Below are positions 17,208-31,801 of a stretch of DNA of 64,000 nt, in pieces. This DNA is from Streptomyces sp. LUP47B (lineage in GTDB: Bacteria; Actinomycetota; Actinomycetes; Streptomycetales; Streptomycetaceae). The notes below the pieces were generated by a model. The model was not told where the DNA came from and searched no databases. It saw only the letters and a list, made by a program, of their open reading frames with translations. The DNA is taken from assembly GCF_001746295.1 (NCBI RefSeq), contig NZ_MJAH01000001.1, positions 398,468 through 462,467 on the forward strand, read 5' to 3'. A program made the position numbers and the translations under genes. Each line of letters begins with the position of its first letter. Position 1 is the first letter of the stretch.

Positions 17208-17759
17208 TCACGCCAGAGGGCCGCCCAGCAGTTCCGTGGCGGTCGTGACGCGGACGAGCGGCCGGTACAGGTCCATGACGCGCAGGGCCTGGGCGTGGTA
17301 GTCGTCGTCCACGCCCGCGCAGGCGTCGGCGACGACCAGCACCTCCACTCCGGCGTCGGCGGCGGCGAGCGCCGTGGACAGTACGCAGCAGTCGGTGCTG
17401 ACGCCTGCCAGGACCAGGCGGCCGCCTGGTGCGGCTCGGGCGGCGAGTTCGGGGGTCCACTTGCCGAGAGTGGACGCGTCCAGGACGTCGTGCGCGAGGG
17501 CCGCGAACTCGTCCGTCAGCCGCCAGAGCGGGGCGTCGGGCGGTTGGAGCGCGAAGGGCCAGCGGTCGTAGTAGGCGCGCCAGGCGCCGGTGGGCTGCGC
17601 GGGGGCGATGAAGCGGGTGAAGGTGACACGCTCGCCGAAGGCCGGCAGCAAGCGACGTACGCCTGCTGCCGCCTCGGTGTAGCGGGGAGCCGCCCAGGGG
17701 CTCGCGGGGTCGGCGAAGACGTCCTGCATGTCGATGACGGCAAGCCAGCCGGTCGTCAT
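17208..17759 (-). CDS. Isochorismatase-superfamily cysteine hydrolase
   Basis: A 183-residue cysteine hydrolase. The catalytic triad is visible: D10 (AVIDMQDVF), K100 (TLGKWTPE) and C125 (GVSTDCCVLST). The superfamily includes N-carbamoylsarcosine amidase, nicotinamidase, ureidoacrylate amidohydrolase and isochorismatase. Next to a sarcosine-oxidase-like gene, an amidase releasing an N-methyl amino acid is an attractive idea, but the protein is shorter than known carbamoylsarcosine amidases. It is coupled by ATGA to a 66-codon frame upstream and sits downstream of a well-formed promoter. Confidence 0.82.
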   Translation of the reverse strand: MTTGWLAVIDMQDVFADPASPWAAPRYTEAAAGVRRLLPAFGERVTFTRFIAPAQPTGAWRAYYDRWPFALQPPDAPLWRLTDEFAALAHDVLDASTLGKWTPELAARAAPGGRLVLAGVSTDCCVLSTALAAADAGVEVLVVADACAGVDDDYHAQALRVMDLYRPLVRVTTATELLGGPLA

Positions 17760-17956
17760 ACGGTCACCGCCCCCTCCTGTGCGCGGACGCGGTCCCGGCC
17801 CAGGGCAGGCGTGCCGAGGAAGCCGGGGGCAGTGGCAGTGGCAGTGGCAGGCAGGGTGAGCGGCAGCGGGACGGCGGGTACCTCGCCGTAACGGTCGTCG
17901 GGGTGGTGGAGGGACATCGGGCGGTCCGCTGTCGTGTCGGCTCGGTGTTCCGTCAT
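17756..17956 (-). CDS. Small 66-residue protein coupled to the cysteine hydrolase
   Basis: MTEHRADTTADRPMSLHHPD begins a 66-residue frame whose stop overlaps the hydrolase start as ATGA. It has no membrane segment or motif I recognise; the middle, TLPATATATAPGF, is encoded by tandem copies of GGCAGT (17828-17850 on the plus strand), a slippage-prone tract. It could be a real small subunit, a leader peptide or the shortened remains of a longer protein. It precedes the hydrolase on the same transcript. Confidence 0.45.
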   Translation of the reverse strand: MTEHRADTTADRPMSLHHPDDRYGEVPAVPLPLTLPATATATAPGFLGTPALGRDRVRAQEGAVTV

Positions 17957-18231: not shown

Positions 18232-18864
18232 TCAGTGCTGGGGGCTGTCCCCGAAGGCCGTCACGGTGAGGAACTGGATGGGGAGTTCGACCAGCGTCTC
18301 CGGGCCGTGCGGGGCCTCGCCGTCGAACTGGAGGGCGTCGCCGGGGCGCAACGTGTAGCTGGACTTGCCGTGGCCGTAGACCATGACGCCTTCCAGCATG
18401 TACAGGAGTTCGGTGCCCGCATGCTGGAAGAGCGGGAAGACCTCGCTCTCCTCGGTCAGGGTGACCAGCAGGGCGTCCATCCGCTTGTGGGCGCCCCGGA
18501 GCGAGCCGAGCTGGGCGTACTCGTGACCGACCCTGGTGCCCCGCCGTACGATCCGGGCGCCGTGACCGGCGGGGACGAAGACCGCCTCGCGTTCGTCGTC
18601 CATGCCGCGGAACAGGGCCGTGACGGGGACGTCCAGACCGCGGGCGAGCCGGGAGAGCGTGGTGAGACTGCACGCGGTCTGGGCATTCTCGATCTTCGAC
18701 AGCATGGCCTTGGAGATGCCGACCCGCTGCGCCATGTCGCCGACCGACAGCCCGGCCGCCTGCCGGTACTCGCGGGCGCGGACCGCGATGATGCGCTCCA
18801 GCGCCTTGTCGTCGGAGTCGTCGGGGGCCGCGGAGTCCGGTGCGGGGGCGGGATGCTCGGTCAC
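18232..18864 (-). CDS. XRE-family regulator with C-terminal cupin domain
   Basis: A 210-residue protein. Residues about 25-85 form a Cro/CI-type helix-turn-helix (RQAAGLSVGDMAQRVGISKAMLSKIENAQT); residues about 130-205 form a cupin (GTELLYMLEGVMVYGHGKSS, LRPGDALQFDGEAPHGPE). Such XRE-cupin regulators commonly control polyamine, amine or amino acid catabolism (the PuuR type). It starts nine bases after the stop of the sarcosine-oxidase-like gene and so probably ends the amine operon, giving feedback control. The inverted repeat at 18136-18155, just downstream, is a candidate site. Confidence 0.85.
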   Translation of the reverse strand: MTEHPAPAPDSAAPDDSDDKALERIIAVRAREYRQAAGLSVGDMAQRVGISKAMLSKIENAQTACSLTTLSRLARGLDVPVTALFRGMDDEREAVFVPAGHGARIVRRGTRVGHEYAQLGSLRGAHKRMDALLVTLTEESEVFPLFQHAGTELLYMLEGVMVYGHGKSSYTLRPGDALQFDGEAPHGPETLVELPIQFLTVTAFGDSPQH

Positions 18865-18873
18865 CGGCGAATC

Positions 18874-19962
18874 CTAGCCCGCGCGGTGCAGTCGGAAGCG
18901 CGGGTGGGGCTCGGCCCGGCCAGTGGCGAGGTCGGCCGCCATCGCGCCGATCAACGGGGCGAATTTCGCGCCGTGGCCGGAGCACGGGGAGGCGATGACG
19001 AACGGACCGTGCCGGTCGAGGACGAAGTCCTCGTCGTGGGTGGTGGTGTAGAGGCAGGTCGCATCGGCCACCGGGTCGGGTTCGAGGCCCGGGAGGCGGT
19101 CGCGTACGAAGCCGCTCACCCGCGTGCGCGACGACGGGTCGACGGCCCCGCTGCGGGTGCGGGCGGTGGTGGGGGTGCCGCGATCGTGCTCCGCGACCTT
19201 GACCGCGGGCAGCGGACCGCCGTCGCTTCCCGACGGCAGCCCGTAGAGATGCAGTTCCCCGTCCCAGATCAGGGTCGGCCACCGCATGGACGGATCCCGC
19301 TGCCGGAAGTGGAAGACCTGCTGCTGGGTCACCTCCAACGGCGGTAGCGAGAAGGGTAGTTCGAGGTCCGGCAGCCAGGCACCGGCAGCGATCACCACCG
19401 TGTCGGCGACGATCTCGCGGCCGTCGTCGGTGCGCAGGAGCACCTTCTCGTCGCCCTGGACGTCGATGCCCGTGACGCGCACGCCGATGATCGCTTCCGT
19501 GCCGTGCTCGATCGCCCGCCGAACGCAGGCCGCGACGGTCTGGTCGGCGTCGACGACGCCCGCGTCTGGGTGGTACAGCACGGGTCCTGTGATGCGGATG
19601 TACGGCCAGCGCTCCGAGGCGGCTTCCGGGCCGAGGACTTCGTGGGGCACCGCGGCCGCATCGAGGAGGGCGGCGAGTTCCTTCGTGTCGCGGCCCTCGC
19701 CCAAGTCGAGGCCACCGGTGGTGCGCAGCAAGGGAGTCGAGCTGTCCTTCTCCAGTTCCCGCCACTGCTCGTGCGCCTGCCCGGTCAGCCGTACGTAGAA
19801 GGGGTCGGCGTAGGCCCGCCGGAAGATCCTTGAGCTGCCGTGCGAACTGCCGTGTCTGTGGCCGATGTCGTACGCCTCGACGAGCGTGACCTCGTGGCCG
19901 CGACGAGCGAGTTGCCAGGCGGTGGCCGCGCCCATCAGTCCGGCGCCTACGACGGCGATCAA
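18874..19962 (-). CDS. Monomeric sarcosine oxidase-like FAD amine oxidase
   Basis: A 362-residue flavoprotein of the monomeric sarcosine oxidase/N-methyltryptophan oxidase family, which oxidises secondary N-methyl amines to formaldehyde and the demethylated amine. Key residues are present: N-terminal FAD fold (VVGAGLMGAATAW), SSHGSSRIFR loop, K255 (position of the O2-activating lysine) and C303 in TCLYTTTHDEDF (covalent FAD). Its TTG start overlaps the upstream stop (TTGA). Since it follows N-methylglutamate-synthase-like genes, N-methylglutamate is a likely substrate; sarcosine or N-methyltryptophan-like compounds are alternatives. Confidence 0.82.
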   Translation of the reverse strand: MIAVVGAGLMGAATAWQLARRGHEVTLVEAYDIGHRHGSSHGSSRIFRRAYADPFYVRLTGQAHEQWRELEKDSSTPLLRTTGGLDLGEGRDTKELAALLDAAAVPHEVLGPEAASERWPYIRITGPVLYHPDAGVVDADQTVAACVRRAIEHGTEAIIGVRVTGIDVQGDEKVLLRTDDGREIVADTVVIAAGAWLPDLELPFSLPPLEVTQQQVFHFRQRDPSMRWPTLIWDGELHLYGLPSGSDGGPLPAVKVAEHDRGTPTTARTRSGAVDPSSRTRVSGFVRDRLPGLEPDPVADATCLYTTTHDEDFVLDRHGPFVIASPCSGHGAKFAPLIGAMAADLATGRAEPHPRFRLHRAG

Positions 19963-21278
19963 AGCCCCTCCCCCGGGATCCAGTTCGTACCCGCGAGTGG
20001 GACGCGGGCCATGGCGGCGGACTCGATCGTAAGGGCGACCAGGTCCTCGGGCTCCAGGTGCAGGAGGTGGGCCTTGCCGCAGGCGCGGGCAAGGGTCTGG
20101 GCCTCCATGGTCATCACACGCAGGTAGTTCGCGAGCCGGCGACCGGCCTCCACCGGATCGAGGCGGGCGGCGAGCTCCTCGTCCTGGGTGGAGATGCCGG
20201 CCGGGTCGCGGCCGTCCTGGTAGTCGTCGAAGTAGCCTGCGGCGGAGCCCAGTTGACGGTACTCGGCATCGTACCTGGGGTGGTTGTCGCCCAGCGCGAT
20301 GAGCGCCGCCGTCCCGATCGCGACCGCGTCCGCGCCCAGAGCGAGGGCCTTGGCCATGTCGGCGCCGCCGCGGATGCCGCCGGAGACGATGAGCTGGACC
20401 TCGCGGTGGACCCCCAGCTCCTGCAGCGCCCGTACCGCTTGGGGCAGCGCGGCCAGGGTGGGGATGCCGACGTGCTCGATGAAGACGTCCTGGGTGGCGG
20501 CCGTGCCGCCCTGCATTCCGTCGACGACCACGACGTCGGCGCCGGCGTGCACGGCGAGCTTGACGTCGTAGTACGTCCGGGTCGCGCCGACCTTCACATA
20601 GATCGGCTTCTCCCAGTCGGTGATCTCCCGGAGCTCCAGGATCTTGATGGCCAGGTCGTCGGGGCCGGTCCAGTCGGGGTGGCGGCAGGCGCTGCGCTGA
20701 TCGATGCCGACGGGCAACGTCCGCATGCCCGCGACGCGCTCGGTGATCTTCTGGCCGAGCAGCATGCCTCCACCGCCGGGCTTGGCGCCCTGGCCGAGGA
20801 CGACCTCGATGGCGTCGGCCTTGCGCAGATCGTCGGGGTTCATGCCGTAGCGGGACGGCAGGTACTGGTAAACGAGGTGCTTGGAGTGGCCCCGCTCCTC
20901 CGGGGTCATCCCGCCGTCGCCGGTGGTCGTCGATGTGCCGACTTCGCTGGCACCGCGGCCGAGGGCCTCCTTGGCCTGGGCGGACAGGGCGCCGAAGCTC
21001 ATGCCGGCGATGGTGACGGGGGTGGCGAGCCGCAGGGGGTGCTTGGCGTGCCGGGTGCCGAGGACGACGTCGGTGTCACAGCGCTCGCGGTAACCCTCCA
21101 GCGGGTAGCGCGACATGGAGGCGCCGAGCAGCAACAGGTCGTCGAAGTGCGGAAGCTTCCGCTTGGCGCCCCAGCCACGGATGTCGTAGACGCCGGTCTC
21201 GGCGGCTCGCTGGATGGCGTGGATGGTGGCACGGTCGAAGGTGGCCGACTCGCGCAGGCCGTAAGCCGCGGGTTCCAA
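19959..21278 (-). CDS. FMN-binding glutamate-synthase domain protein (MgsC-like)
   Basis: About 439 residues of the FMN/iron-sulphur central domain of glutamate synthase, as a separate polypeptide (TIAGMSFGALSAQAKEALG, STTTGDGGMT, GQGAKPGGGGML, DGMQGGTAAT, SGGIRGGADMAKALALGADA, C-terminal GTNWIPG). In the N-methylglutamate pathway such a subunit makes N-methylglutamate from gamma-glutamylmethylamide and 2-oxoglutarate. A TTG at 21278 is preferred, six bases after GAGGAG; an alternative start at 21374 would extend into an intergenic repeat. Coupled to the amine oxidase gene downstream. Start uncertain. Confidence 0.8.
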   Translation of the reverse strand: MEPAAYGLRESATFDRATIHAIQRAAETGVYDIRGWGAKRKLPHFDDLLLLGASMSRYPLEGYRERCDTDVVLGTRHAKHPLRLATPVTIAGMSFGALSAQAKEALGRGASEVGTSTTTGDGGMTPEERGHSKHLVYQYLPSRYGMNPDDLRKADAIEVVLGQGAKPGGGGMLLGQKITERVAGMRTLPVGIDQRSACRHPDWTGPDDLAIKILELREITDWEKPIYVKVGATRTYYDVKLAVHAGADVVVVDGMQGGTAATQDVFIEHVGIPTLAALPQAVRALQELGVHREVQLIVSGGIRGGADMAKALALGADAVAIGTAALIALGDNHPRYDAEYRQLGSAAGYFDDYQDGRDPAGISTQDEELAARLDPVEAGRRLANYLRVMTMEAQTLARACGKAHLLHLEPEDLVALTIESAAMARVPLAGTNWIPGEGL

Positions 21279-21317
21279 TGTCAACTCCTCTGATGGGGCG
21301 AGGTGTCGCACCCCCTG

Positions 21318-21373
21318 AGGGGCGCGGGGCCGTACGGATGTGCGGCTCCACCGCGCGGGCGCGACCGGCGACA
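21318..21373. repeat. Intergenic repeat copy 1
   Basis: A GC-rich stretch running from AGGGGCGCGGGG through TGCGGCTCCACCGCGCGGGC. It matches 30156-30212 at most positions, with the shared core TGCGGCTCC-N-CCGCG forming a short hairpin. The arrangement resembles a degenerate repetitive element scattered between streptomycete genes. It lies between the MgsB-like and MgsC-like genes. Confidence 0.5.
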
Positions 21374-21446
21374 TCCGGCCCGCGGAATGCGGATGAATAC
21401 GGAAGGCAGATGAATTCGGACTCCCAGCGGGGCTGATACGCCGCCG

Positions 21447-22121
21447 CTAGTACGCCGCCGAGTTGCCGACATTGAAGTGGTAGAGCGTCCTGGCGGAGCC
21501 GTACCGTCGGAAATCCGCGGCGTCCTCGTCCCGCTCGGCCGCCTTGAGCAACTCGGCCAGTTCGACGAAGTGTTCCGCCCGCATCTCCTTCTCCACGCAG
21601 TCCGCGCCGAGGGACTTCACCGTGCCCCGGACGTAGATCCGCGCCTCGTAGAGGGAGTCCCCGAGGGCTTCCCCCGCGTCGCCGCAGACGACCAACCGCC
21701 CGGCCTGCCCCATGAACGCGCTCATGTGGCCGACGTTTCCGCCGACGACGATGTCCACGCCCTTCATGGAGATGCCGCAGCGGGCGGCGGCGTCCCCGTC
21801 GACGACGAGCAGTCCGCCGTGGGCGGTGGCCCCGGCCGACTGGGACGCGTTGCCGCGCACCCGCACGGTGCCGGACATCATGTTCTCGGCGACTCCGGTG
21901 CCGGCGTTGCCGTGGACGGTCACGGTGGCACGCTGGTTCATGCCGGCGCAGTAGTAGCCGACGTGACCTTCGATGTCGACGGCGAGATCCTCCCGGATCC
22001 CGCAGGCCACGGCGTGCGCGCCGCGCGGGTTGAGAACACGCCAGGACGCGGCCTCGGGGGCGTGCAGGGCCTGGTTGAGCTCCCGCACCGGTGTCCTGGC
22101 CAGGTCGATCAGCGTCGCCAT
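21447..22121 (-). CDS. GXGXG-domain protein, glutamate synthase C-terminal-like (MgsB-like)
   Basis: A 224-residue right-handed beta-helix protein homologous to the C-terminal GXGXG domain of glutamate synthase (HVGYYCAGMNQRATVTVHGN, VRVRGNASQSAGATAHGG, ISMKGVDIVVGGNVGHMSAF). It is the structural subunit that links the amidotransferase and FMN subunits when glutamate synthase is split into three genes, as in MgsABC. Its start lies inside the 3' end of the upstream amidotransferase gene (13-base overlap), indicating coupled translation. The upstream frame is a shadow. Confidence 0.85.
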   Translation of the reverse strand: MATLIDLARTPVRELNQALHAPEAASWRVLNPRGAHAVACGIREDLAVDIEGHVGYYCAGMNQRATVTVHGNAGTGVAENMMSGTVRVRGNASQSAGATAHGGLLVVDGDAAARCGISMKGVDIVVGGNVGHMSAFMGQAGRLVVCGDAGEALGDSLYEARIYVRGTVKSLGADCVEKEMRAEHFVELAELLKAAERDEDAADFRRYGSARTLYHFNVGNSAAY

Positions 22122-22966
22122 ATGTACACCTCTTCCGGCTCGGGTTCGAAGATCCGGGCGCTCTCGATACCCGGCAGGACGTCCAGCGCCCGGTACTCGG
22201 AGGCCATCGCCACCCATGCGTCGGTCTCGGCGACCAGCGCCGGCTTGCAGGCGATGGCGTCGCGGACGACCGCGAAGGAGTCGCCGGTCGACACCAGCAA
22301 CGTGTAGAAACCGTCGAACCGCTCGCACAGCAGCCGCAGCGCCTTCTCCAGGTCGGTGCCCTGCTCCAGCTGGTGGGCGACGAAGCGGGCGCCGACCTCG
22401 GAGTCGTTCTCGCTGTCGAACTCGACGCCTTGGGCGCGCAGTTCGCGGCGAATGGTGGCGTGGTTGGCGAAGGAGCCGTTGTGCACCAGGCACTGTCCGG
22501 GGCCGACGGAGAAGGGGTGGGCGCCCTCGGGGGTGACGGCCGACTCGGTGGCCATGCGGGTGTGGCCGACGCCCTGCCAGCCGCTCACCCCGGCGAGCCC
22601 GAACGCGTCCGCCAACTCGACGGGATTCCCGGTGCCCTTGAGTACGGCGAACCCCTCGCCGGAGCCGATGACAGTGGCTTCGGGAAGCGCGGCGGCAATT
22701 TGGTCGGCACCGGCGTGCACCACGGTGGTGGCGTCGGCGTCGAGGGCCACCACCCCTGGCAGCGCGGCTTCCACCTCGGTCTTCGAGGTGCCCAGCAGTG
22801 AGACGACGGCTTGTCCCGGCGGGGACAGCCGCGGGTCGCCGTACACCGCGACACCCGCCGAGTCCGGGCCGCGCTCGACGACCTGGCCGAGCATCGCGCT
22901 CAGCAACTCGCCGAGCCGTGGTTCGAGTGAGGGGTCACGCAGATGGAGCCCCACGATTCCGCACAT
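22109..22966 (-). CDS. Class II glutamine amidotransferase (MgsA-like)
   Basis: A 285-residue N-terminal-nucleophile amidotransferase. Cys at position 2 (MCGIVGLHLRD) is the nucleophile after Met removal; GPDSAGVAVYG, HTRMATESAVTPEGAHPF and LVHNGSFANH are the class II glutaminase signatures. In the N-methylglutamate synthase arrangement this subunit takes gamma-glutamylmethylamide rather than glutamine and channels the amine. It is followed by the GXGXG and FMN subunits in the order A-B-C and preceded 57 bases upstream by the glutamine-synthetase-like gene. Confidence 0.85.
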   Translation of the reverse strand: MCGIVGLHLRDPSLEPRLGELLSAMLGQVVERGPDSAGVAVYGDPRLSPPGQAVVSLLGTSKTEVEAALPGVVALDADATTVVHAGADQIAAALPEATVIGSGEGFAVLKGTGNPVELADAFGLAGVSGWQGVGHTRMATESAVTPEGAHPFSVGPGQCLVHNGSFANHATIRRELRAQGVEFDSENDSEVGARFVAHQLEQGTDLEKALRLLCERFDGFYTLLVSTGDSFAVVRDAIACKPALVAETDAWVAMASEYRALDVLPGIESARIFEPEPEEVYIWRR

Positions 22967-23023
22967 CTCAAGTCCCTTCGGAAGGCGGTCAAAGGCGGAA
23001 GACGATCAAAAGGCGAGAGGCGA

Positions 23024-24352
23024 TCAGAAGGCGGTCAGATAGCGGTCGAGCTCCCAGGGGCCGACCGTCGCGTGCCAGTCGAAGAACTCCTGGCGCTTGA
23101 GGTCCGCGAAGTACCGGCTCACGCCGCTCCCGGCCACGTCCAGGGCGCCGCTGATCACGTCGTCCGTCTGGAGGGCCTCGACCGCGTGCAGCAGGGTCGG
23201 CGGGAGTTCGGGGCCCTTGCCGCCCGCGCCCGGCTCGCCGGGGTCGAGGTCGCGCTCGATGCCGTCCAAGCCGGCGGCGAGGGCGGCGGCAGCGGCGAGG
23301 TAGGGGTTGGCGGCGCCGTCTCCGCCGCGCAGCTCGATGCGGTTGCCGTCGGGGACGCGGACGAAGTGGGTGCGGTCGTTGCCGCCGTAACTTGCCACGC
23401 GCGGTGACCAGGTGGCGCCCGAGCGGGTGGAGACCGCGCCGGTGCGCTTGTAGGAGTTGACCGTGGGGGCGATCACGGCCTGCAGGGCCGGCGCGTGCTC
23501 GACGATCCCGGCGAGGAAGGAGTAGGCGAGCGGGGAGAGGCCCAGTCCGCGTCCGTCGGTGGCGTCGGGGAAGGCGGGGTCGTCGCCCCGCCAGAGCGAC
23601 ATGTGCATATGCATGCCGGTGCCGGTGCGGTCGGTGAAGGGCTTCGGCATGAACGTGGCCGTCATGCCGCGCTGTTCGGCCAGTACCGACACCAGGTACC
23701 GCATGGTGATGACCCGGTCGGCGGTGGTGAGGGCGTCGGCGTGCTGGAAGTTCTGCTCGAACTGGCCGTTGCCGTCCTCGTGGTCGTTGGCGTAGTTGCC
23801 CCAGCCGAGGGAGTTCATGGCGCTGGAGACCGCGGTGAGGTGGTCGTACATCCGGGTCAACCCGCGTGCGTCGTAACAGGGTTGGGCAGCGGTGTCCCTG
23901 ACGTCGGCGACCCTGAGCACGCCGTGCTCGTCCCGGTTGACGAGGAAGTACTCGACTTCCGCGCCCACGGAGAGGGACAGTCCTCGCTCGGCGGCCCGCT
24001 TCAGCAGTCCGCGCAGGATGACCCGCGGGGCGTACGGCCAGGGCTTCCCCTCCACGTACGGGTCGCAGTGGACGAGCGCGAGACCGGGCTTGACGAAGGG
24101 GACGGGCGTGTACGAGGCCGCGTCCGGCCGGGCGATGACATCGGGGTCGCTGGGCTGCTGGCCAAGCGCGCCGGCCGCGTATCCGGCGAACCCCACGCCC
24201 GCGTCCCGGAGTTCCTCGACGGCTTGGGCCGGGACGAGCTTGGCGCACGGCTTGCCGGTGAGGTCGACGAAGACGGCGAGCACGAACTCGATGCCGTCGG
24301 CGCGGACCAGCTCGGCGAGATCGGGGGCGTCCGGTTCCGGGTCGGTCGTCAT
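23024..24352 (-). CDS. Type III glutamine synthetase-like, probable gamma-glutamylmethylamide synthetase
   Basis: A 442-residue GlnT/GmaS-type ligase that joins glutamate to ammonia or a primary amine using ATP. Visible motifs: SVGAEVEYFLV (metal-binding acids), FEQNFQHADALTTADR, GTGMHMHMSLWRGDDP and APTVNSYKRTGA. The length matches known gamma-glutamylmethylamide synthetases (about 444). With MgsABC-like genes immediately downstream, methylamine is the best guess; ethanolamine or polyamine ligation is the alternative. The ATG is preceded by GGGAGGGG; a GTG at 24373 is possible. A strong terminator separates it from the permease gene upstream. Confidence 0.78.
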   Translation of the reverse strand: MTTDPEPDAPDLAELVRADGIEFVLAVFVDLTGKPCAKLVPAQAVEELRDAGVGFAGYAAGALGQQPSDPDVIARPDAASYTPVPFVKPGLALVHCDPYVEGKPWPYAPRVILRGLLKRAAERGLSLSVGAEVEYFLVNRDEHGVLRVADVRDTAAQPCYDARGLTRMYDHLTAVSSAMNSLGWGNYANDHEDGNGQFEQNFQHADALTTADRVITMRYLVSVLAEQRGMTATFMPKPFTDRTGTGMHMHMSLWRGDDPAFPDATDGRGLGLSPLAYSFLAGIVEHAPALQAVIAPTVNSYKRTGAVSTRSGATWSPRVASYGGNDRTHFVRVPDGNRIELRGGDGAANPYLAAAAALAAGLDGIERDLDPGEPGAGGKGPELPPTLLHAVEALQTDDVISGALDVAGSGVSRYFADLKRQEFFDWHATVGPWELDRYLTAF

Positions 24353-24455
24353 GGCCCCTCCCAGGGTGTCCACTGTGGTGAATCAATGTTGCATCTGAGT
24401 AGACATCCTGGGTGTTACGGCCGGATTTCCGCCATGGAAGGTCCCCGTAAGCCGA

Positions 24456-24503: not shown

Positions 24504-25931
24504 TCAGGACACGACAGCCGTCGGTTCGCTGGAGCCCAGCTCGGCCGAACCTCGGGAGGAACCCCGCACCCACAGCGGCTTCAGCCGGTACGTCAGCAGG
24601 TACAGCACCGCGCCCGCTCCGGCCGCGACGAACATGCTCAGGTCGCCCGCGCCCGGATACGCGGTCGAGAAGGGGCCGGTGTAGAAGCTGGACTGCCAGA
24701 ACGGCACCGAGGCGGCCACCCCGCCCGCCCAGGAGACGAAGCCCCAGTCGAGCACCCGGCGGCGGTCGTAGAGCTCGGAGACGCGGGACGGGTCGGAGCG
24801 GCCGCCCAGGTAGAAGTCGAGGAGCAGCACGGCCGCGAAGGGGGCGATGAAGTACGCGGTCAGGTTGAGGAACACCTTGAACTTGTCCTCCGTGCCCGAC
24901 TCGCCCCACAGGCTGATCGCGTAGGCCAGCAGACAGATGACGGTGACCGCCTGGGAGCGGCTGACCGGGATCTTCAGCGTCTGCACGGAGATCGCGCCAC
25001 CGTAGACGTTGAGGAAGTTCTGCGCGAGTGCGGACAGGCCGACGGCGAGCAGGGCGGGCACGGCGAAGGGGCCGGCCAGTTGGTGCAGAGCGGTGATCGA
25101 GTCCGAGCTGGTCGCGCTGCCGCCGACGACCACGCCCAGGATGCCCAGCCAGCAGATGGTGACGAAGTTGCCGAGGCCGGTGTACCAGGCGGTACGGGTG
25201 ACGACCTCGGGGGTGTCCGGCAGATAGCGGGAGTAGTCCGAGGCGAACGGCGCCCAGGCCACCAGGAAGGACAGGAACCAGCCTCCGAAGGTGACCCAGC
25301 CGCCGGCGGAGCCGATGTAGCCGGACGCCTTCGGGTCGGCGTGGAAGAGGCTTCCGCCGCGCACGACCGCGACCACGGTGATGAGGAGGAAGAGCGGGGT
25401 GAGGACGTAGGTCAGCGCCTTCTGCAGGTAGTTGATCATGTTGTAGCCGTAGATCGACACCACCAGCTCGACCGCCGTGAGCACCGCGCCGCACAGCCAG
25501 AACGGCAGATGTGTCAGTTCGGCGAACGCCTTGCCGCCCAGGATGACGGTGACCGCGGCCCAGCCGATCCCGGCGAAGACGTTGATGTATGCCACGGGCA
25601 GGAAGTTGCCGAAGAATCCGAGCGGGCCGCGCGCCTGGACCTGCTGCGCCACGCCGAGCCGTACTCCCATCCGGGACATGACGGCCATCAGCAGCGAGCC
25701 GACCGCCGCCCCGACGGCGATGGCCGTGACGGCGGCGCCGAAGCTCAGTCCGAACCAGGCCGCGCTGAAGCCGAGCAGGATGATCGGGAAGTTGAGACCG
25801 GCCGCGAACCAGACGAAGAACTGCGAGCTGGGCTTGCCGTGCCGTTCGTTGTCGGGGATGTGGTCGATGCCGAAGGGCTCGATCTTGGTGACCGCGCTGC
25901 CGTAGACCGGCGCCGGTGTTCCGTCTGTCAT
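24504..25931 (-). CDS. NCS1-family nucleobase/hydantoin-type permease
   Basis: A 475-residue integral membrane transporter of the NCS1 (purine-cytosine permease) family with about 12 hydrophobic segments. The cytosolic N-terminus IEPFGIDHIPDNERHGKP and the following FFVWFAAGLNFP are family signatures. NCS1 carriers import cytosine, allantoin, uracil, hydantoins or thiamine-like heterocycles with H+ or Na+. It follows the SnoaL-flavin-reductase gene by 28 bases on the same strand and is closed by its own terminator, so its substrate is probably what the divergent monooxygenase operon degrades. Confidence 0.88.
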   Translation of the reverse strand: MTDGTPAPVYGSAVTKIEPFGIDHIPDNERHGKPSSQFFVWFAAGLNFPIILLGFSAAWFGLSFGAAVTAIAVGAAVGSLLMAVMSRMGVRLGVAQQVQARGPLGFFGNFLPVAYINVFAGIGWAAVTVILGGKAFAELTHLPFWLCGAVLTAVELVVSIYGYNMINYLQKALTYVLTPLFLLITVVAVVRGGSLFHADPKASGYIGSAGGWVTFGGWFLSFLVAWAPFASDYSRYLPDTPEVVTRTAWYTGLGNFVTICWLGILGVVVGGSATSSDSITALHQLAGPFAVPALLAVGLSALAQNFLNVYGGAISVQTLKIPVSRSQAVTVICLLAYAISLWGESGTEDKFKVFLNLTAYFIAPFAAVLLLDFYLGGRSDPSRVSELYDRRRVLDWGFVSWAGGVAASVPFWQSSFYTGPFSTAYPGAGDLSMFVAAGAGAVLYLLTYRLKPLWVRGSSRGSAELGSSEPTAVVS

Positions 25932-25959: not shown

Positions 25960-26895
25960 TCACCACGGCAACGGCGCCGTGTGCGAGATGTCGAAGAAAC
26001 CGCCGCCGCTGTAGACCAGCGGGGCGAGGTCGTCGTGCCGGGCGGAGACCACCCGGCCGGTGAACACGGTGTGGCTGCCGGCCTCGAGCCGCTGTCCGAT
26101 CTCGACCTCCAGCTGGGCGCAGGAGCCGTCGATCAGCGGGGCGCCGAAGTCACCGGGGGTCCAGGAGATACGGGCGAACTTGTCGTCGTCCTTGGAGGCG
26201 AAGGTCTTCGCCACGTCGAGCTGGTCGGCGGCCAGGATGCTGATGCCGAGATGGCTCGACCGGTGCAGTGCGGGATGGGTGCTGGAGCTGTGCTGCACGC
26301 AGACCAGGACCATTGGCGGGTCGAGCGAGATGCTGGAGAAGGCGTTGACCGCGAGGCCGCGGGGCGTGCCGTCGTCGTCCGTGGTCACCACGGTGACGCC
26401 GGTGATGAACTTGCGGTGCACCCCGCGCACCAGGTCGGCGTCGACGGCGGCCCGCTGGACGGTGGAGATGATCCCGAGCGCCTCCAGGAGCTGCCGGGAG
26501 TCGAAGGTCACCCACTCCTCGGCGACCGAGGGCCCCTCGAAGCGGGCGAAGGTCGCGCCGGACACCTCGACCGGTTTCCCGGTGGGCGGCACACCGAGGA
26601 AGTCCCCGGTGTGCCGGCCGGCGCTGCGCCAGCGGATCGCCAGCCGGTCGCCGTCCTCGACGATGTCCTCGATCTCGGTCCGCAGGTCGGGGAACGCCTC
26701 ACGGACGGCGCGGATGGAGTCCTTGAGCTGGTCCCGGTCCTGTGTGACGGACGCGGGCCCGCGGCGGCGGACGTAGGAGGGGCTGAGCAGATCGTCCAGG
26801 GCGTCGAGGTGTCCCTGGTCCCAGGCGGCGCGCCAAGCGGAGCGGACACGGGAGCTGCGATCGGCGGCGGCGGGGCGGTCAAGAGTGTGGGTCAT
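25960..26895 (-). CDS. SnoaL-like domain fused to a flavin reductase
   Basis: A 311-residue fusion. Residues about 15-135 are a SnoaL/ester-cyclase-like domain (WRAAWDQGHLDALDDLLSP, VREAFPDLRTEIEDIVEDGD, GVPPTGKPVEVSGATFARFE). Residues about 150-311 are a flavin reductase domain (HRKFITGVTVVTTDDDG, LAVNAFSSISLDPPMVLVCV, SGGGFFDISH). The reductase half should supply FMNH2 to the luciferase-like monooxygenase encoded divergently; the SnoaL half may bind or isomerise the product. I know of no characterised protein with this order. It starts 212 bases from the monooxygenase gene. Confidence 0.8.
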   Translation of the reverse strand: MTHTLDRPAAADRSSRVRSAWRAAWDQGHLDALDDLLSPSYVRRRGPASVTQDRDQLKDSIRAVREAFPDLRTEIEDIVEDGDRLAIRWRSAGRHTGDFLGVPPTGKPVEVSGATFARFEGPSVAEEWVTFDSRQLLEALGIISTVQRAAVDADLVRGVHRKFITGVTVVTTDDDGTPRGLAVNAFSSISLDPPMVLVCVQHSSSTHPALHRSSHLGISILAADQLDVAKTFASKDDDKFARISWTPGDFGAPLIDGSCAQLEVEIGQRLEAGSHTVFTGRVVSARHDDLAPLVYSGGGFFDISHTAPLPW

Positions 26896-27039
26896 GGTGG
26901 GTCCCTCAGTCAGCTCTTGTATGGCAGAGGACCGTAGGGAGGGGATGGTTCGGTGTCAACACCTCATCCGGAAAAGCCTGGTGATTGCCGCGATGTCGAT
27001 CAAACACACAGGTCAGACTTGTTTCGGAGTAGTTAACCC

Positions 27040-27069
27040 TTGACGGCACCGATTCCGGACTCCTAGCCT
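27040..27069 (+). promoter_or_regulatory. Promoter of the luciferase-like monooxygenase operon
   Basis: TTGACG (27040-27045) and TAGCCT (27064-27069) are separated by 18 bases. The predicted start point near 27076 would leave a leader of about 30 bases before the ATG at 27107. It would also coincide with an in-frame ATG at 27077, so a leaderless longer form is conceivable. Confidence 0.45.
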
Positions 27070-27106
27070 CACTGCCATGGCACAGCGAGAGAGGGAAGGT
27101 CACGGG

Positions 27107-28231
27107 ATGCGGTTCTCGATATTCCACAACCTCGGAGCCCCCGGGCGGCTCGGCGAGTACGCCCAAATGATGGACGAGGCCCGGGAGTTCGCAGTCGCCG
27201 CGGAACAGGCCGGTTTCTGGTCCACCTGGTACACCGAGCACCATTTCGGGCACGAGGCGATCGAGATCACGCCGAACCCGGTCCTCATGGGCACCGACAT
27301 CGCGGCCCGTACGTCACGCATCCGCATCGGCCAGGCGGCGTCCATCGCCACCTTCTGGCACCCACTGCGGCTCGCCGAGGACATCGCGATGCTCGACCAG
27401 CTCTCCGGCGGCCGCGTCGAGGTCGGCCTCGGCCGTGGTCTGTACGGCCGCGAGGCACTCAACCTCAACGCCCTGGCCGACCCGCGCGACCAGGAGCAGA
27501 ACCGGGCGCTGTACGACGAGACGGTCGAGATCCTGCGCAAGGCGTGGAGCGGCGAGTTCTTCTCCCACAAGGGCCGCTTCTACGAGTTCCCGGCCCCCGG
27601 CGTGAAATGGAACCACCCGCTCTCCCCCGCGACGGACGACTACACGACCGCCGGCGCCATCACGAAGATGCAGGTCACTCCCTTCCCCCTGCAGCGCCCG
27701 CACCCGCCCCTGTGGCAGGTCATCGACAGCCCCCGCTCCATCCAGGCAGCGGCTGCCGACGGCGTCCAGGGCATGTTCTGGCTCCCGCCGGTGTCCGCGC
27801 TGAAGGACCGCTTCGAGCTGTACCGCGCCACGGCGAGCGAGGCCTCGGGCCGGGAGTACACCCTCGGCGAGGGCATCGGCCTGGTACGGGACGTCTATGT
27901 CGCCGACACCATGGAGCAGGCCCGCGCCGACTTCGAGGAGGCGCTGATGACGACCTACCGCTGGATCATGCACTGGCGCGGGCTGAGCAATCTCATGGAG
28001 GCCGGCGAGGAGCTCACCGACGCGCACGAGCTGTCCTTCGACTTCCTCCAGGACAGGAACCTGCTCGTCGGCACGCCCGAGTACGTCGCCGAGAAGGTGG
28101 CGGAGCTGCGCGACGAGGTCGGCCTGGAGCACCTCCTGCTGTGGACCACGCACCCGGGGCTCGAACACCGCAAGGCGATGCGCAGCCTGGAGCTGTTCGC
28201 GGAGAAGGTCATGCCGGAGTTCGCCGCATGA
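27107..28231 (+). CDS. Luciferase-like (LLM) FMN-dependent monooxygenase
   Basis: A 374-residue bacterial-luciferase-family TIM-barrel flavoenzyme (MRFSIFHNLGAPGRLGEY, ARTSRIRIGQAASIATFWHP, LDQLSGGRVEVGLGRGLYG, GTPEYVAEKVAELRDEVG). These enzymes use reduced FMN from a partner reductase to oxygenate aldehydes, nitrogen heterocycles or cyclic ketones. The start at 27107 has a GGAAGG ribosome site and fits where the family begins; 27077 is the alternative. It heads a four-gene string with ATGA overlaps (two PF06684 genes, hydrolase). Partner reductase is divergent. Confidence 0.85.
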   Translation: MRFSIFHNLGAPGRLGEYAQMMDEAREFAVAAEQAGFWSTWYTEHHFGHEAIEITPNPVLMGTDIAARTSRIRIGQAASIATFWHPLRLAEDIAMLDQLSGGRVEVGLGRGLYGREALNLNALADPRDQEQNRALYDETVEILRKAWSGEFFSHKGRFYEFPAPGVKWNHPLSPATDDYTTAGAITKMQVTPFPLQRPHPPLWQVIDSPRSIQAAAADGVQGMFWLPPVSALKDRFELYRATASEASGREYTLGEGIGLVRDVYVADTMEQARADFEEALMTTYRWIMHWRGLSNLMEAGEELTDAHELSFDFLQDRNLLVGTPEYVAEKVAELRDEVGLEHLLLWTTHPGLEHRKAMRSLELFAEKVMPEFAA

Positions 28232-28827
28232 GCACGGGCGTCCGGAAGGTCGTGACCGTCGTCGAGGAGGTGCTGCTGGAACTCGGCCGCCCGGTGGCGA
28301 CTCCGGTACGGCGGGTCGCGGTGGCCGCGGTGCTCCGCAACCCCTGGGCGGGGCGCGGTTTCGTGGCCGACCTGCAGCCCGAGGTCGAGGCGGTGGCACC
28401 GGAGTTGGCGCAGCTGCTGACCGGGAAGCTGATCGACGCGCTGGGCGGAGCCGACCGCGTCGAAGCCTTCGGCAAAGCGGCCGTCGTGGGCCTGGACGGC
28501 GAGATCGAGCACGGCGGCGCGCTGATCCACACGCCGTACTTCGGCAACGTCCTGCGGGAGTTGACCGAGGGCACGTCGATCATCGTCTTCAGCGACGACC
28601 GGCTGCCGGCCGGTGAGCCGCTCACCGTCCCGCTGTGGCACAAGACGGCCGCCGCGACCCGCTCGCACTACCAGACCGTCCAGATCCGCGTCCCGGACGC
28701 CCCCCGGCCCGACGAGCTCGTCGTGGTCGCCGCCGCAGCGTCCGGCCCGCGCCCCAATGCCCGTATCGGAGACCGCCGTACGGATCCCGCCGTCCGTCTC
28801 GTCGACCTGCTGGAGAACGCCCGATGA
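28228..28827 (+). CDS. PF06684 (AA_synth/DUF1185) family protein, first copy
   Basis: A 199-residue protein of the PF06684 'amino acid synthesis' family, whose solved members have a variant of the Bacillus chorismate mutase fold and no established reaction. Landmarks: RKVVTVVEEVLLELGRP, VLRNPWAGRGFVADLQPE, AFGKAAVVGLDGEIEHGGAL. It shares these with the next gene, so the pair arose by tandem duplication and may form a hetero-oligomer. Its ATG overlaps the monooxygenase stop (ATGA), implying equal expression and a role on the monooxygenase product. Confidence 0.85.
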   Translation: MSTGVRKVVTVVEEVLLELGRPVATPVRRVAVAAVLRNPWAGRGFVADLQPEVEAVAPELAQLLTGKLIDALGGADRVEAFGKAAVVGLDGEIEHGGALIHTPYFGNVLRELTEGTSIIVFSDDRLPAGEPLTVPLWHKTAAATRSHYQTVQIRVPDAPRPDELVVVAAAASGPRPNARIGDRRTDPAVRLVDLLENAR

Positions 28828-29375
28828 ACGTCCGCAAGATCATCACCTTCACCGAGGACATCCACACCGAGGGCGGCCGCCCCGTCGACCCGCCCGCCCG
28901 TACCGCGGTGGTGCTCGCCGTGATCGAGAACCCGTGGGCGGGACAGGGCTTCGTCGCCGACCTCCTGCCCGGGATCGACGAAGTCGCCCCGAAACTCGGC
29001 GAGTTGCTGGCCCCCCGGGTGGTGGAGGCGCTCGGGGTGCCGGTGGAGGCGTACGGGAAGGCGGCGATCGTCGGACTGGACGGGGAGATCGAGCACGGCT
29101 CGGCGCTGATCCACACGCTGAAGTTCGGCGACCACTTCCGTAAGGCGGCTCAGGCGACGACCTTGCTGCCGGCCGTGGAGAAGCGCGCGGCGGCCGGAAC
29201 GGTCTTCGACATCCCGCTGAAGCACATCACGGACGCCACCATCCGCTCCCACCACCAGACGATCGAGGTCCGCGTGCCGGACGGCCCGCGCGCCGACGAG
29301 ATCGTCATCGGCCTGGCGGCCGCGGCCCAGGGGCGGCCGCAGGCCCGGCTGGCGCCGCTGTCGACGGAACGATGA
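28824..29375 (+). CDS. PF06684 (AA_synth/DUF1185) family protein, second copy
   Basis: A 183-residue paralogue of the preceding protein (RKIITFTEDIHTEGGRPVDP, VIENPWAGQGFVADLLPG, YGKAAIVGLDGEIEHGSALI), with clear divergence in the C-terminal half. Both copies keep the GLDGEIEHG segment, which may form the active pocket. Coupled by ATGA on both sides. The fold relation to YjgF-type proteins suggests a hydrolase or deaminase-like clean-up step in ring degradation, but this is inference. Confidence 0.85.
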   Translation: MNVRKIITFTEDIHTEGGRPVDPPARTAVVLAVIENPWAGQGFVADLLPGIDEVAPKLGELLAPRVVEALGVPVEAYGKAAIVGLDGEIEHGSALIHTLKFGDHFRKAAQATTLLPAVEKRAAAGTVFDIPLKHITDATIRSHHQTIEVRVPDGPRADEIVIGLAAAAQGRPQARLAPLSTER

Positions 29376-30157
29376 CCACGGTGGGCCCGCCGGTGGCGCT
29401 CAGCCACGAGGTGCACGGCACCGGTCCTGACCTCGTGCTGCTCCACGGCGTGGGGCTCGACCGGTCGATGTGGGCGCGCTGCCTGCCCGCACTGGCCGAA
29501 CGGCACCGTGTGAGAGTGGTCGACCTGCGCGGACACGGCACCTCTCCGCCGGCGGCTCCCGGGGTGTCCCTGCCGGAACTGGCGGCTGACGTGGCGGCAC
29601 TACTGGAAGGCCCCACACACCTCGTGGGCTTCTCCCTCGGCGCCCTGATCGCGCAACAACTGGCTGCTGTGAGACCCGAGTTGACAGCTTCACTCACCCT
29701 GGTGAGCTCGGTCGCCGGACGATCGCAGGAAGAGCGGACGGCGGTGGCACGACGCCGGGAGCGGGCCGTGGCGGACTTCGAGGCGTCGGCGCTCGCGGCG
29801 GTGGAGCGCTGGTTCTCGCCGACGTGGCGGACCAGTGAGCCGGAGCTGTCCCAGCCGGTCCTCACCACCCTGCTGAAGAACGACCGCACGTCGTACCTGG
29901 CCTGCTACGACGTGTTCGCCACCGCGGACGCGGCGCTGTGGCCCCACCTGCCCGACATCACGGCACCGACCCTCGCGGTGACAGGCGAGGACGACCCCGG
30001 CTCGACCCCGGCGATGTCCCGACTGCTCGCCGAGAGGATCCCCGGCGCCCGCGCGATGATCGTGCCAGGAGCACGTCACCTGCTCCCACTGGAGCGCCCG
30101 AAGGACCTCGTCGACGCGATCCTTCACCACACGGAGGCGACGACAGCGCCCCACTAG
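29372..30157 (+). CDS. Alpha/beta hydrolase
   Basis: A 261-residue alpha/beta hydrolase of the 3-oxoadipate enol-lactonase/RutD-like type. The nucleophile elbow is GFSLG; the acid is in GEDDPGS and the base His in GARHLLPLE. The oxyanion region is LHGVGLDRSMW. It probably hydrolyses the ester, lactone, carbamate or amide generated by the monooxygenase step. Its ATG overlaps the stop of the second PF06684 gene. It is the last gene of the tightly coupled string; an intergenic repeat follows. Confidence 0.85.
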   Translation: MTTVGPPVALSHEVHGTGPDLVLLHGVGLDRSMWARCLPALAERHRVRVVDLRGHGTSPPAAPGVSLPELAADVAALLEGPTHLVGFSLGALIAQQLAAVRPELTASLTLVSSVAGRSQEERTAVARRRERAVADFEASALAAVERWFSPTWRTSEPELSQPVLTTLLKNDRTSYLACYDVFATADAALWPHLPDITAPTLAVTGEDDPGSTPAMSRLLAERIPGARAMIVPGARHLLPLERPKDLVDAILHHTEATTAPH

Positions 30158-30212
30158 GGGCGACGGTCCGCGCCGACATGCGGCTCCGCCGCGTGGCCGC
30201 GAGCAACCACAC
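30156..30212. repeat. Intergenic repeat copy 2
   Basis: AGGGGCGACGGTCCG through TGCGGCTCCGCCGCGTGGCC, with a perfect GCGGC-TCC-GCCGC hairpin. It matches copy 1 at 21318-21373 and overlaps the hydrolase stop codon by two bases. The tail ACCCGCAGCCGAGGAG leads directly into the ribosome site of the aldehyde dehydrogenase gene. Likely a degenerate member of a streptomycete intergenic repeat family. Confidence 0.5.
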
Positions 30213-30239
30213 ACAACCCGCAGCCGAGGAGCAGCCCGC

Positions 30240-31727
30240 ATGACCCCACTCCCTCGCCACCAGCACTACATCGCCGGCGAATGGACAGCCCCCGCCTCCG
30301 GCGAGTACTTCGAGAGCCTCAACCCGACCACCGGCCGGCCCTGGTACGAGGCGGCCGACGGAACCGCCGAGGACATCGACCGCGCCGTCAAAGCCGCCCG
30401 AACCGCCTTCGAGGACCGTCGCTGGCGCGACCTCAGCCAGACCGGACGAGGCCGCCTACTACGCAACCTCGCCGAGCTCATCGGCGAAAACGCGGCGGAG
30501 CTGGCCCGTACCGAAACCCTCGACAACGGCAAACTGCTGCGCGAGATGCGCGCCCAACTCGCGGGTCTCCCCGAGTACTTCCACTACTACGCCGGACTCG
30601 CCGACAAGATCCACGGCGAGGTCATCCCGGGCGCGAGCCGCGACCTGCTCAACTACACCCTGCGCGAACCGGTGGGCGTGGTCGGCGCGATCACCCCCTG
30701 GAACTCCCCTCTCCTGCTGACCGCCACGAAACTCGCCCCCGCACTCGCCGCCGGCAACACCGTGGTCGTCAAGCCGTCCGAACACACCTCGGCGTCCCTG
30801 CTGGTCCTCGCCCCGCTCTTCGAGCAGGCCGGCTTCCCGCCGGGCGTCGTCAACGTGGTCACCGGATACGGCGCCACGGCGGGCGCCCCGCTCACCGAGC
30901 ACCCCGACGTGGCCAAGGTGACCTTCACCGGCTCCACCGAGACCGGCCGCCGTATCGCCCGTACCTGCGCGGACCGCTTCGTACGCTGCACTCTCGAACT
31001 CGGCGGCAAGTCACCGAACATCGTCTTCCCGGACGCCGATCTCCCCTCCGCGGCCATGGGTGTGGTCGCCGGCATCTTCGCCGCCGCCGGCCAGACGTGC
31101 GTGGCGGGCAGCCGCGTGCTCGTGCACCGGGACGTCTACGACGAGATCCTGGAGCGGGTGACGGCGCGAGCCGCCGGTATCCGCATCGGCGACCCCCTGG
31201 AGGACACGACCGAGCTGGGCCCGCTGGCCCTGGCCGACCAGCTGGCGAAGGTCGAGTCGTACGTCGAGCTGGGTCTGTCGGAGGGCGGCAAGGTGGTCTG
31301 CGGAGGAGCGCGGCCCGTGACCGGTCTCGGCGGCTGGTTCTACTCCCCCACGGTCTTCACCGGCACGGACAACTCGATGCGCATCTGCCAGGAGGAGATC
31401 TTCGGTCCCGTCGCCACGGTCATGCCGTTCGCGTCCGAGGAAGAGGCCCTCGCCATCGCGAACGACACGGTCTACGGTCTGGCCGCGGGCGTGTGGACCC
31501 GGGACGTCAACCGCGTCCACCGCATGGCGGCGCGCCTGGAGGCGGGCACCGTCTGGGCCAACACGTACCGGTCGATGTCGCCGATGTCACCGCGCTCGGG
31601 CTTCAGGAGCAGCGGCACGGGCGTCGAACACGGCACGGAGGTCATCCGGGAGTACACCCGGCTGAAGAGCGTGTGGGTCAACACGAGCGAGGAACCCGTG
31701 GGTGATCCCTTCGTCCTGCGGTCATGA
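30240..31727 (+). CDS. Aldehyde dehydrogenase
   Basis: A 495-residue NAD(P)-dependent aldehyde dehydrogenase: ITPWNSPLLLTATKLAPALA (Asn for the oxyanion), KPSEHTSAS, ELGGKSPNIVF (general base Glu) and GQTCVAGSRV (nucleophile Cys). It closes the LLM/PF06684/hydrolase operon, so it presumably oxidises a semialdehyde released from the opened ring. An alternative is a general gamma-aminobutyraldehyde-type enzyme. The GntR gene follows directly. Confidence 0.88.
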   Translation: MTPLPRHQHYIAGEWTAPASGEYFESLNPTTGRPWYEAADGTAEDIDRAVKAARTAFEDRRWRDLSQTGRGRLLRNLAELIGENAAELARTETLDNGKLLREMRAQLAGLPEYFHYYAGLADKIHGEVIPGASRDLLNYTLREPVGVVGAITPWNSPLLLTATKLAPALAAGNTVVVKPSEHTSASLLVLAPLFEQAGFPPGVVNVVTGYGATAGAPLTEHPDVAKVTFTGSTETGRRIARTCADRFVRCTLELGGKSPNIVFPDADLPSAAMGVVAGIFAAAGQTCVAGSRVLVHRDVYDEILERVTARAAGIRIGDPLEDTTELGPLALADQLAKVESYVELGLSEGGKVVCGGARPVTGLGGWFYSPTVFTGTDNSMRICQEEIFGPVATVMPFASEEEALAIANDTVYGLAAGVWTRDVNRVHRMAARLEAGTVWANTYRSMSPMSPRSGFRSSGTGVEHGTEVIREYTRLKSVWVNTSEEPVGDPFVLRS

Positions 31728-31763
31728 GCCGCCTTGCATGGCAGAAGGCAGAGCCGAGGGAGG

Positions 31764-31793
31764 TTGACGCCGCGCGCCTCCCCACACTACGTT
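31764..31793 (+). promoter_or_regulatory. Internal promoter of the GntR gene
   Basis: TTGACG (31764-31769), 18-base spacer, TACGTT (31788-31793). The expected start point is within a base or two of the ATG at 31802, so the regulator would be made from a leaderless mRNA. This also explains why the in-frame ATG at 31724, overlapping the dehydrogenase stop, need not be used. Confidence 0.45.
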
Positions 31794-31801
31794 CACGTAC
31801 C

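Follow-up and report, generated by a model that had tools for sequence, protein, structure and literature searches.

How is the N-methylglutamate pathway completed where the enzyme of its last step is not encoded beside the genes of the first two? In Methyloversatilis, Methylobacterium and SAR11, this pathway is encoded by gmaS (glnT), mgsABC (glxBCD) and mgdABCD (soxBDAG), with SoxBDAG being a proposal in the case of SAR11 (PMC6237917, PMC3160333). Within a window of 64,000 nucleotides from the 11.0-Mb genome of Streptomyces sp. LUP47B (assembly GCF_001746295.1, contig NZ_MJAH01000001.1, positions 398,468 to 462,467), an operon at window positions 18232–24352 combines the same ligase with the same three synthase subunits but lacks an adjoining four-subunit dehydrogenase. 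Directly after mgsC, it has instead a single chain of 362 amino acids (aa), which is devoid of the folate-binding SoxA part and resembles monomeric sarcosine oxidase (MSOX).

As a preliminary description of the sequence had proposed, replacement of the four-subunit MgdABCD by a single-chain enzyme in this operon is well supported, because the arrangement recurs, the enzyme types exclude each other, the catalytic residues are present, and four of the 16 genomes with an MSOX-type operon yielded neither a SoxG nor a SoxA that exceeded the cut-off. We consider it slightly more likely than not that the operon draws nitrogen from a small primary amine, with methylamine as the most likely one, and assimilates it via glutamate, with the MSOX-type oxidase in the place of MgdABCD. 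In this scheme, which follows the N-methylglutamate pathway as described in PMC6237917, the GmaS-type ligase would use ATP to join the amine to glutamate, giving a gamma-glutamyl-amide (as its family and residues suggest), and MgsABC, judged by family, would convert this product to an N-alkylglutamate. The MSOX-type oxidase, standing in for the folate-binding MgdABCD, would then oxidize the N-alkyl C–N bond with O2 to yield glutamate, H2O2 and an aldehyde, which would be formaldehyde if the amine is methylamine. Unlike MgdABCD with its GcvT-like SoxA part, the single chain would set the aldehyde free. A wider proposition, which we regard as evenly balanced, is that the enzyme is a single-chain, folate-free N-alkyl-L-glutamate oxidase and that the last-step slot has been refilled by at least three flavoenzymes (MSOX, a SoxB-like chain and SoxBDAG) even within one genus, perhaps with a larger amine.

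What is new is the single-chain-oxidase version of the pathway, which we did not find described in open-access literature: the phrase "N-methylglutamate oxidase" was absent from the literature searched, and titles and the openings of abstracts revealed no monomeric enzyme for this step. If the proposal is true, actinobacteria have a recurring variant of an operon that is commonly taken as a marker of methylamine use, and this variant is missed by current annotation under the names type III glutamine synthetase, glutamate synthase and N-methyltryptophan oxidase. The proposal would also introduce a new enzyme, made of a single protein, that acts on N-methylglutamate or related compounds, and show how actinobacteria without SoxBDAG could complete the pathway, at the predicted cost of free aldehyde and H2O2 instead of carbon passed to folate.

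All six genes lie on the minus strand, are free of internal stops according to an open reading frame check, and agree in family and coordinates with the set described earlier. They are transcribed in the order GmaS-type ligase, MgsA, MgsB, MgsC, MSOX-type flavoprotein and XRE-cupin regulator. The glutamate–amine ligase (23024–24352, 442 aa), a member of the type III glutamine synthetase family, scores 602.7 bits against TIGR03105 (cut-off 469.6), and its nearest chains in the Protein Data Bank (PDB) are 7cql, a type III glutamate–ammonia ligase (RhGmaS), and 9qur, a glutamate–methylamine ligase. MgsA (22109–22966; PF13522, PF13537) is the class II glutamine amidotransferase subunit and begins MCGIVG, with an N-terminal Met-Cys, while MgsB (21447–22121; PF01493, 44 bits) is the GXGXG/FwdC-like subunit. 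MgsC (19959–21278), the FMN glutamate-synthase-like subunit (PF01645, Glu_synthase, 303.5 bits), most likely starts at the TTG at 21278 and has 439 aa, a frame length also seen in a relative (L083; L and G numbers denote loci and genomes); the MgsC queries used below started upstream of this site, at 21317. The oxidase (18874–19962, TTG start) was recognized by its PDB matches 7exs and 1el5, its residues and a structure model, and the XRE-cupin transcriptional regulator (18232–18864; PF13560/PF01381 and PF07883) probably regulates the operon. The genes had been called co-directional and mostly overlapping; the former is correct, but only two of the five junctions overlap (mgsA/mgsB by 13 bp and mgsC/oxidase by 4 bp), the others having gaps of 9 bp (oxidase/regulator), 57 bp (GmaS/MgsA) and approximately 168 bp (MgsB/MgsC).

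The operon is real and conserved: the same gene order occurs in many genera and the MgsC–MSOX pair in 15 of 392 genomes of the genus, which excludes a chance arrangement. MgsC is 97% identical to its counterparts in the nearest named relatives, Streptomyces himastatinicus and S. antibioticus, and 81–86% identical to copies in proteobacterial loci. The host genome holds six further places of the glutamine synthetase family (at best 36–37% identical to the ligase) and only two GXGXG places, namely MgsB and one within a 1542-aa frame that is presumably an ordinary glutamate synthase.

The flavoprotein that follows MgsC

Based on fold and sequence family, the window protein belongs to the family of MSOX and N-methyl-L-tryptophan oxidase (MTOX), and it has the catalytic residues of the O2-using MSOX. 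It reaches 253.4 bits against NF008425 (N-methyl-L-tryptophan oxidase), 3.6 bits under the cut-off of 257, and 227 bits against TIGR01377, far under the cut-off of 479.65. Its predicted structure (pLDDT 90.3) has TM scores of 0.87–0.91 to 7exs, MSOX, MTOX and NikD. Compared to the solved monomeric sarcosine oxidases of Bacillus (1el5, 2gb0) and Thermomicrobium (7exs) and to MTOX (2uzz), it shares the fold, the covalent-FAD Cys, Lys265 and the substrate Arg and Lys, but is only about 28–35% identical to structures of this family, carries the replacement F347A (MSOX numbering) and a loop insertion, and is linked in an operon to mgsABC.

The two residues highlighted in the preliminary description, Cys303 (for covalent FAD) and Lys255, do align with MSOX Cys315 and Lys265. 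Further aligned residues are Arg45, Arg48, His259, Tyr305 and Lys333, among which Arg48 and Lys333 correspond to the substrate-binding Arg52 and Lys348 of MSOX. We take the roles in MSOX to be covalent FAD attachment for the Cys, O2 activation for Lys265, and substrate binding for Arg52 and Lys348, some of which are echoed by PDB titles. In the alignment, K265, C315, R49, R52 and K348, the positions examined for O2 activation, flavin attachment and binding of the carboxylate, are kept in all 16 operon-linked MSOX rows, and H269 and Y317 in all 12 window-type rows, four of which have Phe in place of Y254. Ala replaces F347 in 17 of 17 rows (the operon-linked ones and an orphan, L170), which also have a short inserted loop in common, and Phe is found in all 11 comparison rows. 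Since the clade includes four unlinked rows that likewise have Ala at 347, and since Phe is retained in the distant MSOX of L124, F347A marks the clade and not operon membership as such. The orphan itself (L170:7484-8557) is 82% identical to the window oxidase and lies in a genome without MgsC.

Enzymes in the last-step slot across loci and within the genus

We compared 89 loci, comprising the window, eight others and the best 80 of 588 related loci. Near MgsC, 16 of them have an MSOX, 34 a different single-chain enzyme of the DAO superfamily (hereafter B-type), one has both (L124), 25 have SoxB, and 13 have no recognized enzyme in the fetched stretch. The 57 actinobacterial loci include all 34 B-type and 16 MSOX loci, L124 (whose MSOX is distant), one SoxB locus and five in which none was seen, although one of these five (L112) does hold a B-type gene that is split between frames. 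With L124 as the single exception among these 57 loci, the enzyme types are mutually exclusive in the fetched stretches. A threshold of 45% identity was used for these counts, under which the weak Pseudomonas matches L152 and L157 were not labelled DAO, although they did carry that label in the GmaS residue comparison and the MgsC tree. An XRE-cupin homologue adjoins many of the related loci.

Every one of the 35 B-type rows has Gly in place of Lys265 as well as of Cys315, and the structures closest to the B-type model are 1vrq (SoxB) and 1y56 (L-proline dehydrogenase); therefore, this enzyme is probably not an MSOX-like oxidase. This type is found in the mycobacterial amt1-glnT-glxBCD-oxidoreductase operon (Mycolicibacterium and Mycobacterium loci such as L090, L092, L093, L097 and L100–L103), which has the same ligase and synthase genes, a single-chain flavoprotein after mgsC and then an XRE-cupin gene, but whose flavoprotein belongs to this other DAO branch. 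The genes MSMEG_6259-6264 were assigned to this version by annotation and order alone. Their expression depends on GlnR, which binds upstream of amt1 (PMC4222082), and four of them are upregulated 2.1- to 2.7-fold under nitrogen limitation (PMC4617892).

In a quick tree of MgsC with 102 rows, the enzyme labels need 24 changes, compared with a mean of 53.5 after shuffling, and well-supported branches force at least three changes of the MSOX label. Thus, the enzyme follows lineage, yet it has been exchanged, or moved by transfer, more than once.

The association was also examined in 392 genomes of the genus, using thresholds of E up to 1e-100 for MgsC and 1e-85 for MSOX. MgsC was detected in 18 genomes and MSOX in 23, with 18 of the latter at more than 50% identity (53–100%); both occur in 15 genomes, and in all 15 the two genes are no more than 30 bp apart. 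The other three genomes with MgsC have a B-type DAO (G530, G588) or SoxB and SoxA (G638). In the fetched stretches of all 18 operons (approximately 8 kb on each side), a single enzyme type was seen. Since close relatives hold three different enzymes in the same slot, a direct test is possible inside one genus. Fisher's exact test gave p = 1.4e-21 for the association over the 392 genomes, uncorrected for relatedness. The 54% line first used for a close MSOX had been drawn after the matches were seen, and hence the test was repeated with all 23 matches, adding five at 47–50% identity (p = 8e-19). The two samples overlap: at least G586 and G666 seem to be identical with the genomes that hold L083 and L086, and named species may be duplicated by some of L043–L050.

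Two further observations were made in this genus. One MgsC match (L011, G079:C1:4245096-4246439) has one in-frame TGA and is either a decayed copy or an assembly error. In addition, four genomes without MgsC contain two different MSOX-family genes close together (L171, L172, L187 and L188), and in L172 a gene for an MscR-type formaldehyde dehydrogenase (77%) adjoins the pair.

Evidence against the proposed route and rival explanations

The findings that weigh against the proposed route concern the oxidase, the four-subunit enzyme and the amine. With regard to the oxidase, H269 and Y317 are kept in just two of the four Micrococcaceae/Microbacteriaceae rows, and the specificity columns of the alignment revealed no residue with an obvious role in binding the gamma-carboxylate of N-methylglutamate. 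A strict tie between MSOX and MgsC is contradicted by three genomes of the genus that lack MgsC but have a close MSOX (G084, 82%; G681, 71%; G528, 57%) and by the five matches at 47–50% identity, all in genomes without MgsC. Moreover, the host genome encodes one SoxG and one SoxA over cut-off (the latter with a GcvT-like domain), together with SoxB, beside serine hydroxymethyltransferase, and SoxG was found in 15 of 29 operon-bearing genomes searched, including 12 of 16 of the MSOX type and three of 13 of the B-type, the class of SoxB being known for the host set only. The Sox genes and the three genomes with MSOX but no MgsC would fit an ordinary oxidase of sarcosine or N-methyl amino acids, whose fold and residues the protein has, that merely shares the operon while a four-subunit enzyme elsewhere carries out the last step.

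We consider this explanation improbable. No four-subunit MgdABCD lies beside the operon (SoxD was not searched separately), and the queries used gave no SoxA, SoxB or SoxG match anywhere inside the window. A genome-wide search for mgdABCD had been set as a test in the preliminary description, and the one SoxBAG set that it found could have refuted the replacement, but this set looks like a true sarcosine oxidase as judged from its serine hydroxymethyltransferase neighbour and from the grouping of its SoxB, which pairs with that of a solved sarcosine oxidase (3ada) with support of 100/100. In the same tree, from which five rows duplicating loci as well as L152 and L157 were left out, SoxB from Mgs loci makes up a weakly supported cluster of its own (82/63). 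Four of the 16 MSOX-type genomes (those of L085, L089, L131 and L161) gave no SoxG match with E up to 0.001, and their SoxA matches, all below the cut-off, were partial and GcvT-like or oxidoreductase-like. A SoxA search of 17 genomes, comprising two controls and 15 genomes in which SoxG was weak or absent, returned only the controls, G000 and G493, over cut-off. These absences are not absolute because the genomes are partly drafts; as far as the present data show, these four genomes have no heterotetramer that could complete the pathway. The exclusion of alternative enzymes from the same slot also speaks against a mere passenger, as do F347A and the inserted loop of the operon-linked rows, subject to the unlinked rows with Ala and the Phe of L124.

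With respect to the amine, the roles of the catalytic and methylamine-binding residues of RhGmaS are taken from PMC7948447. The window ligase conserves 10 of the 11 residues compared and six of the seven in the methylamine pocket, and across 88 loci, window included, K30, A48, Y147, D177, E179, E186, N188, R288, W300 and R312 are kept wherever a locus has a letter there. The exception is the pocket position Gln175: all 32 proteobacterial loci have Gln, whereas Ala is present in each of the 55 actinobacterial loci that can be read at this position (one further locus has a gap). The SoxB-linked L149 from the actinobacterium Pseudonocardia also has Ala; therefore, Q175A tracks lineage and not oxidase type. 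This replacement counts against methylamine in that a larger amine could be accommodated. Methylamine is chiefly called into question by Mycobacterium smegmatis, which appears to hold a B-type cousin of the operon and, in the one growth condition reported, did not grow on 10 mM methylamine; its growth on ethanolamine is GlnR-dependent (PMC4222082).

The same chemistry might therefore act on a larger primary amine, such as ethylamine, ethanolamine, isopropylamine or a breakdown product made by neighbouring genes, which would be converted through an N-alkylglutamate to glutamate and the matching aldehyde. An NCS1-family permease gene and a cluster encoding a flavin reductase, a luciferase-type monooxygenase and an aldehyde dehydrogenase adjoin the operon in the window and would suit such a substrate, but the permease and flavin reductase neighbours are absent beside most relatives. 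The other six pocket residues of RhGmaS (K30, Y147, D177, E179, E186 and N188) are kept, and Gma–MgsABC clusters are present in the methylamine-using Mycobacterium sp. 141 and 155, which lack a full gene for methylamine oxidase and in which MgdA-D were attributed to genes located elsewhere (PMC5023230). On balance, a larger amine is unlikely but deserves to be taken seriously, and methylamine is still preferred.

A further rival is an auxiliary set for ammonium assimilation, consisting of glnT and a glutamate-synthase-like complex, in which the flavoprotein, as an oxidase or dehydrogenase of amino acids, would release the nitrogen of glutamate or of some other amino acid. Genes of an Amt-family cluster (Pfam was run on two members; e.g., L090:4737-5996) are near the operon in 45 of the 89 loci, and in 16 of the 34 B-type loci they immediately precede the ligase gene, in line with this possibility. 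Amt proteins may carry methylammonium too, however, and the enzymes in the slot are all DAO-superfamily members whose closest matches act on sarcosine, N-methyltryptophan or proline. The GlnR dependence of the M. smegmatis operon (PMC4222082) would also suit a role in ammonium supply, but the ligase lacks the ammonia site of a true glutamine synthetase, having A48 for Asp and W300 for the Glu flap (PMC7948447). Overall, we see little chance that the operon serves ammonium and retain the reading of amine assimilation.

Upstream region and neighbouring genes

A comparison of window-type loci revealed a conserved footprint before gmaS (24353–24410, minus strand), GTCTACTC-nnn-TGCAAC-nnn-GATTCA-...-CAGTGGACAC, which is recognizable in 11 of the 12 loci, seven with GTCTACT and four in a diverged form. 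It is a likely regulator site and may be that of the XRE-cupin regulator or of GlnR. The best inverted repeats of the footprint are not rare among shuffles, except in L045 (2/200), and a simple score for the GlnR box GTNAC-n6-GAAAC before the window ligase is 6/9, a value that has no background distribution and on which we base no claim of a GlnR box.

Upstream of the ligase lies the variable NCS1-family permease gene (24504–25931, minus strand; PF02133, 123 bits), which was found beside the operon in only some relatives (L083, L044, L190 and L191) at more than 85% identity; a flavin reductase gene adjoins the operon in the same four loci. The region that follows in the window (25960–32497) encodes a SnoaL–flavin reductase fusion, a divergent luciferase-type monooxygenase, an AA_synth protein, an alpha/beta hydrolase, an aldehyde dehydrogenase and a GntR regulator. 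Together, these genes make up a catabolic cluster, which might supply the operon with an amine. A creatinine/N-carbamoylsarcosine route built on the permease and an isochorismatase gene (17208–17762) was rejected, as both are absent beside most relatives compared and no isochorismatase family exceeded its NCBIfam cut-off.

The preliminary description had assigned the handling of formaldehyde to mycothiol enzymes at 10.1–11.8 kb. Their identity was correct, as a mycothiol-dependent formaldehyde dehydrogenase (TIGR03451 over cut-off) and an MBL-fold hydrolase are encoded at 10095–11798, but no special tie to the operon was observed: the genes are approximately 6 kb away, among genes for P450, ferredoxin reductase and an HpaB-type hydroxylase, and L118 and L119 are the only relatives compared that have an MscR homologue of more than 70% identity in the vicinity of the operon. 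They are a group separate from the operon.

Among other neighbours, an M20-family amidohydrolase gene (L115:11459-12742, L104:10275-11570 and others) is near the operon in 11 of the 89 loci and stands directly after mgsC or the oxidase gene in Nocardia, Sinomonas and Arthrobacter; the protein of L115 is of the allantoate/N-carbamoyl-amino-acid type according to NCBIfam. Finally, a second, distant MgsABC type (MgsC 51–54% identical) is present in several other actinobacterial families (L065–L075, e.g., L065:3600-8000, and L061:200-4700), and some genomes contain it together with the close type. Near most of these sets there is a ligase approximately 28–33% identical to that of the window, and they perhaps represent a sister pathway for another amine.

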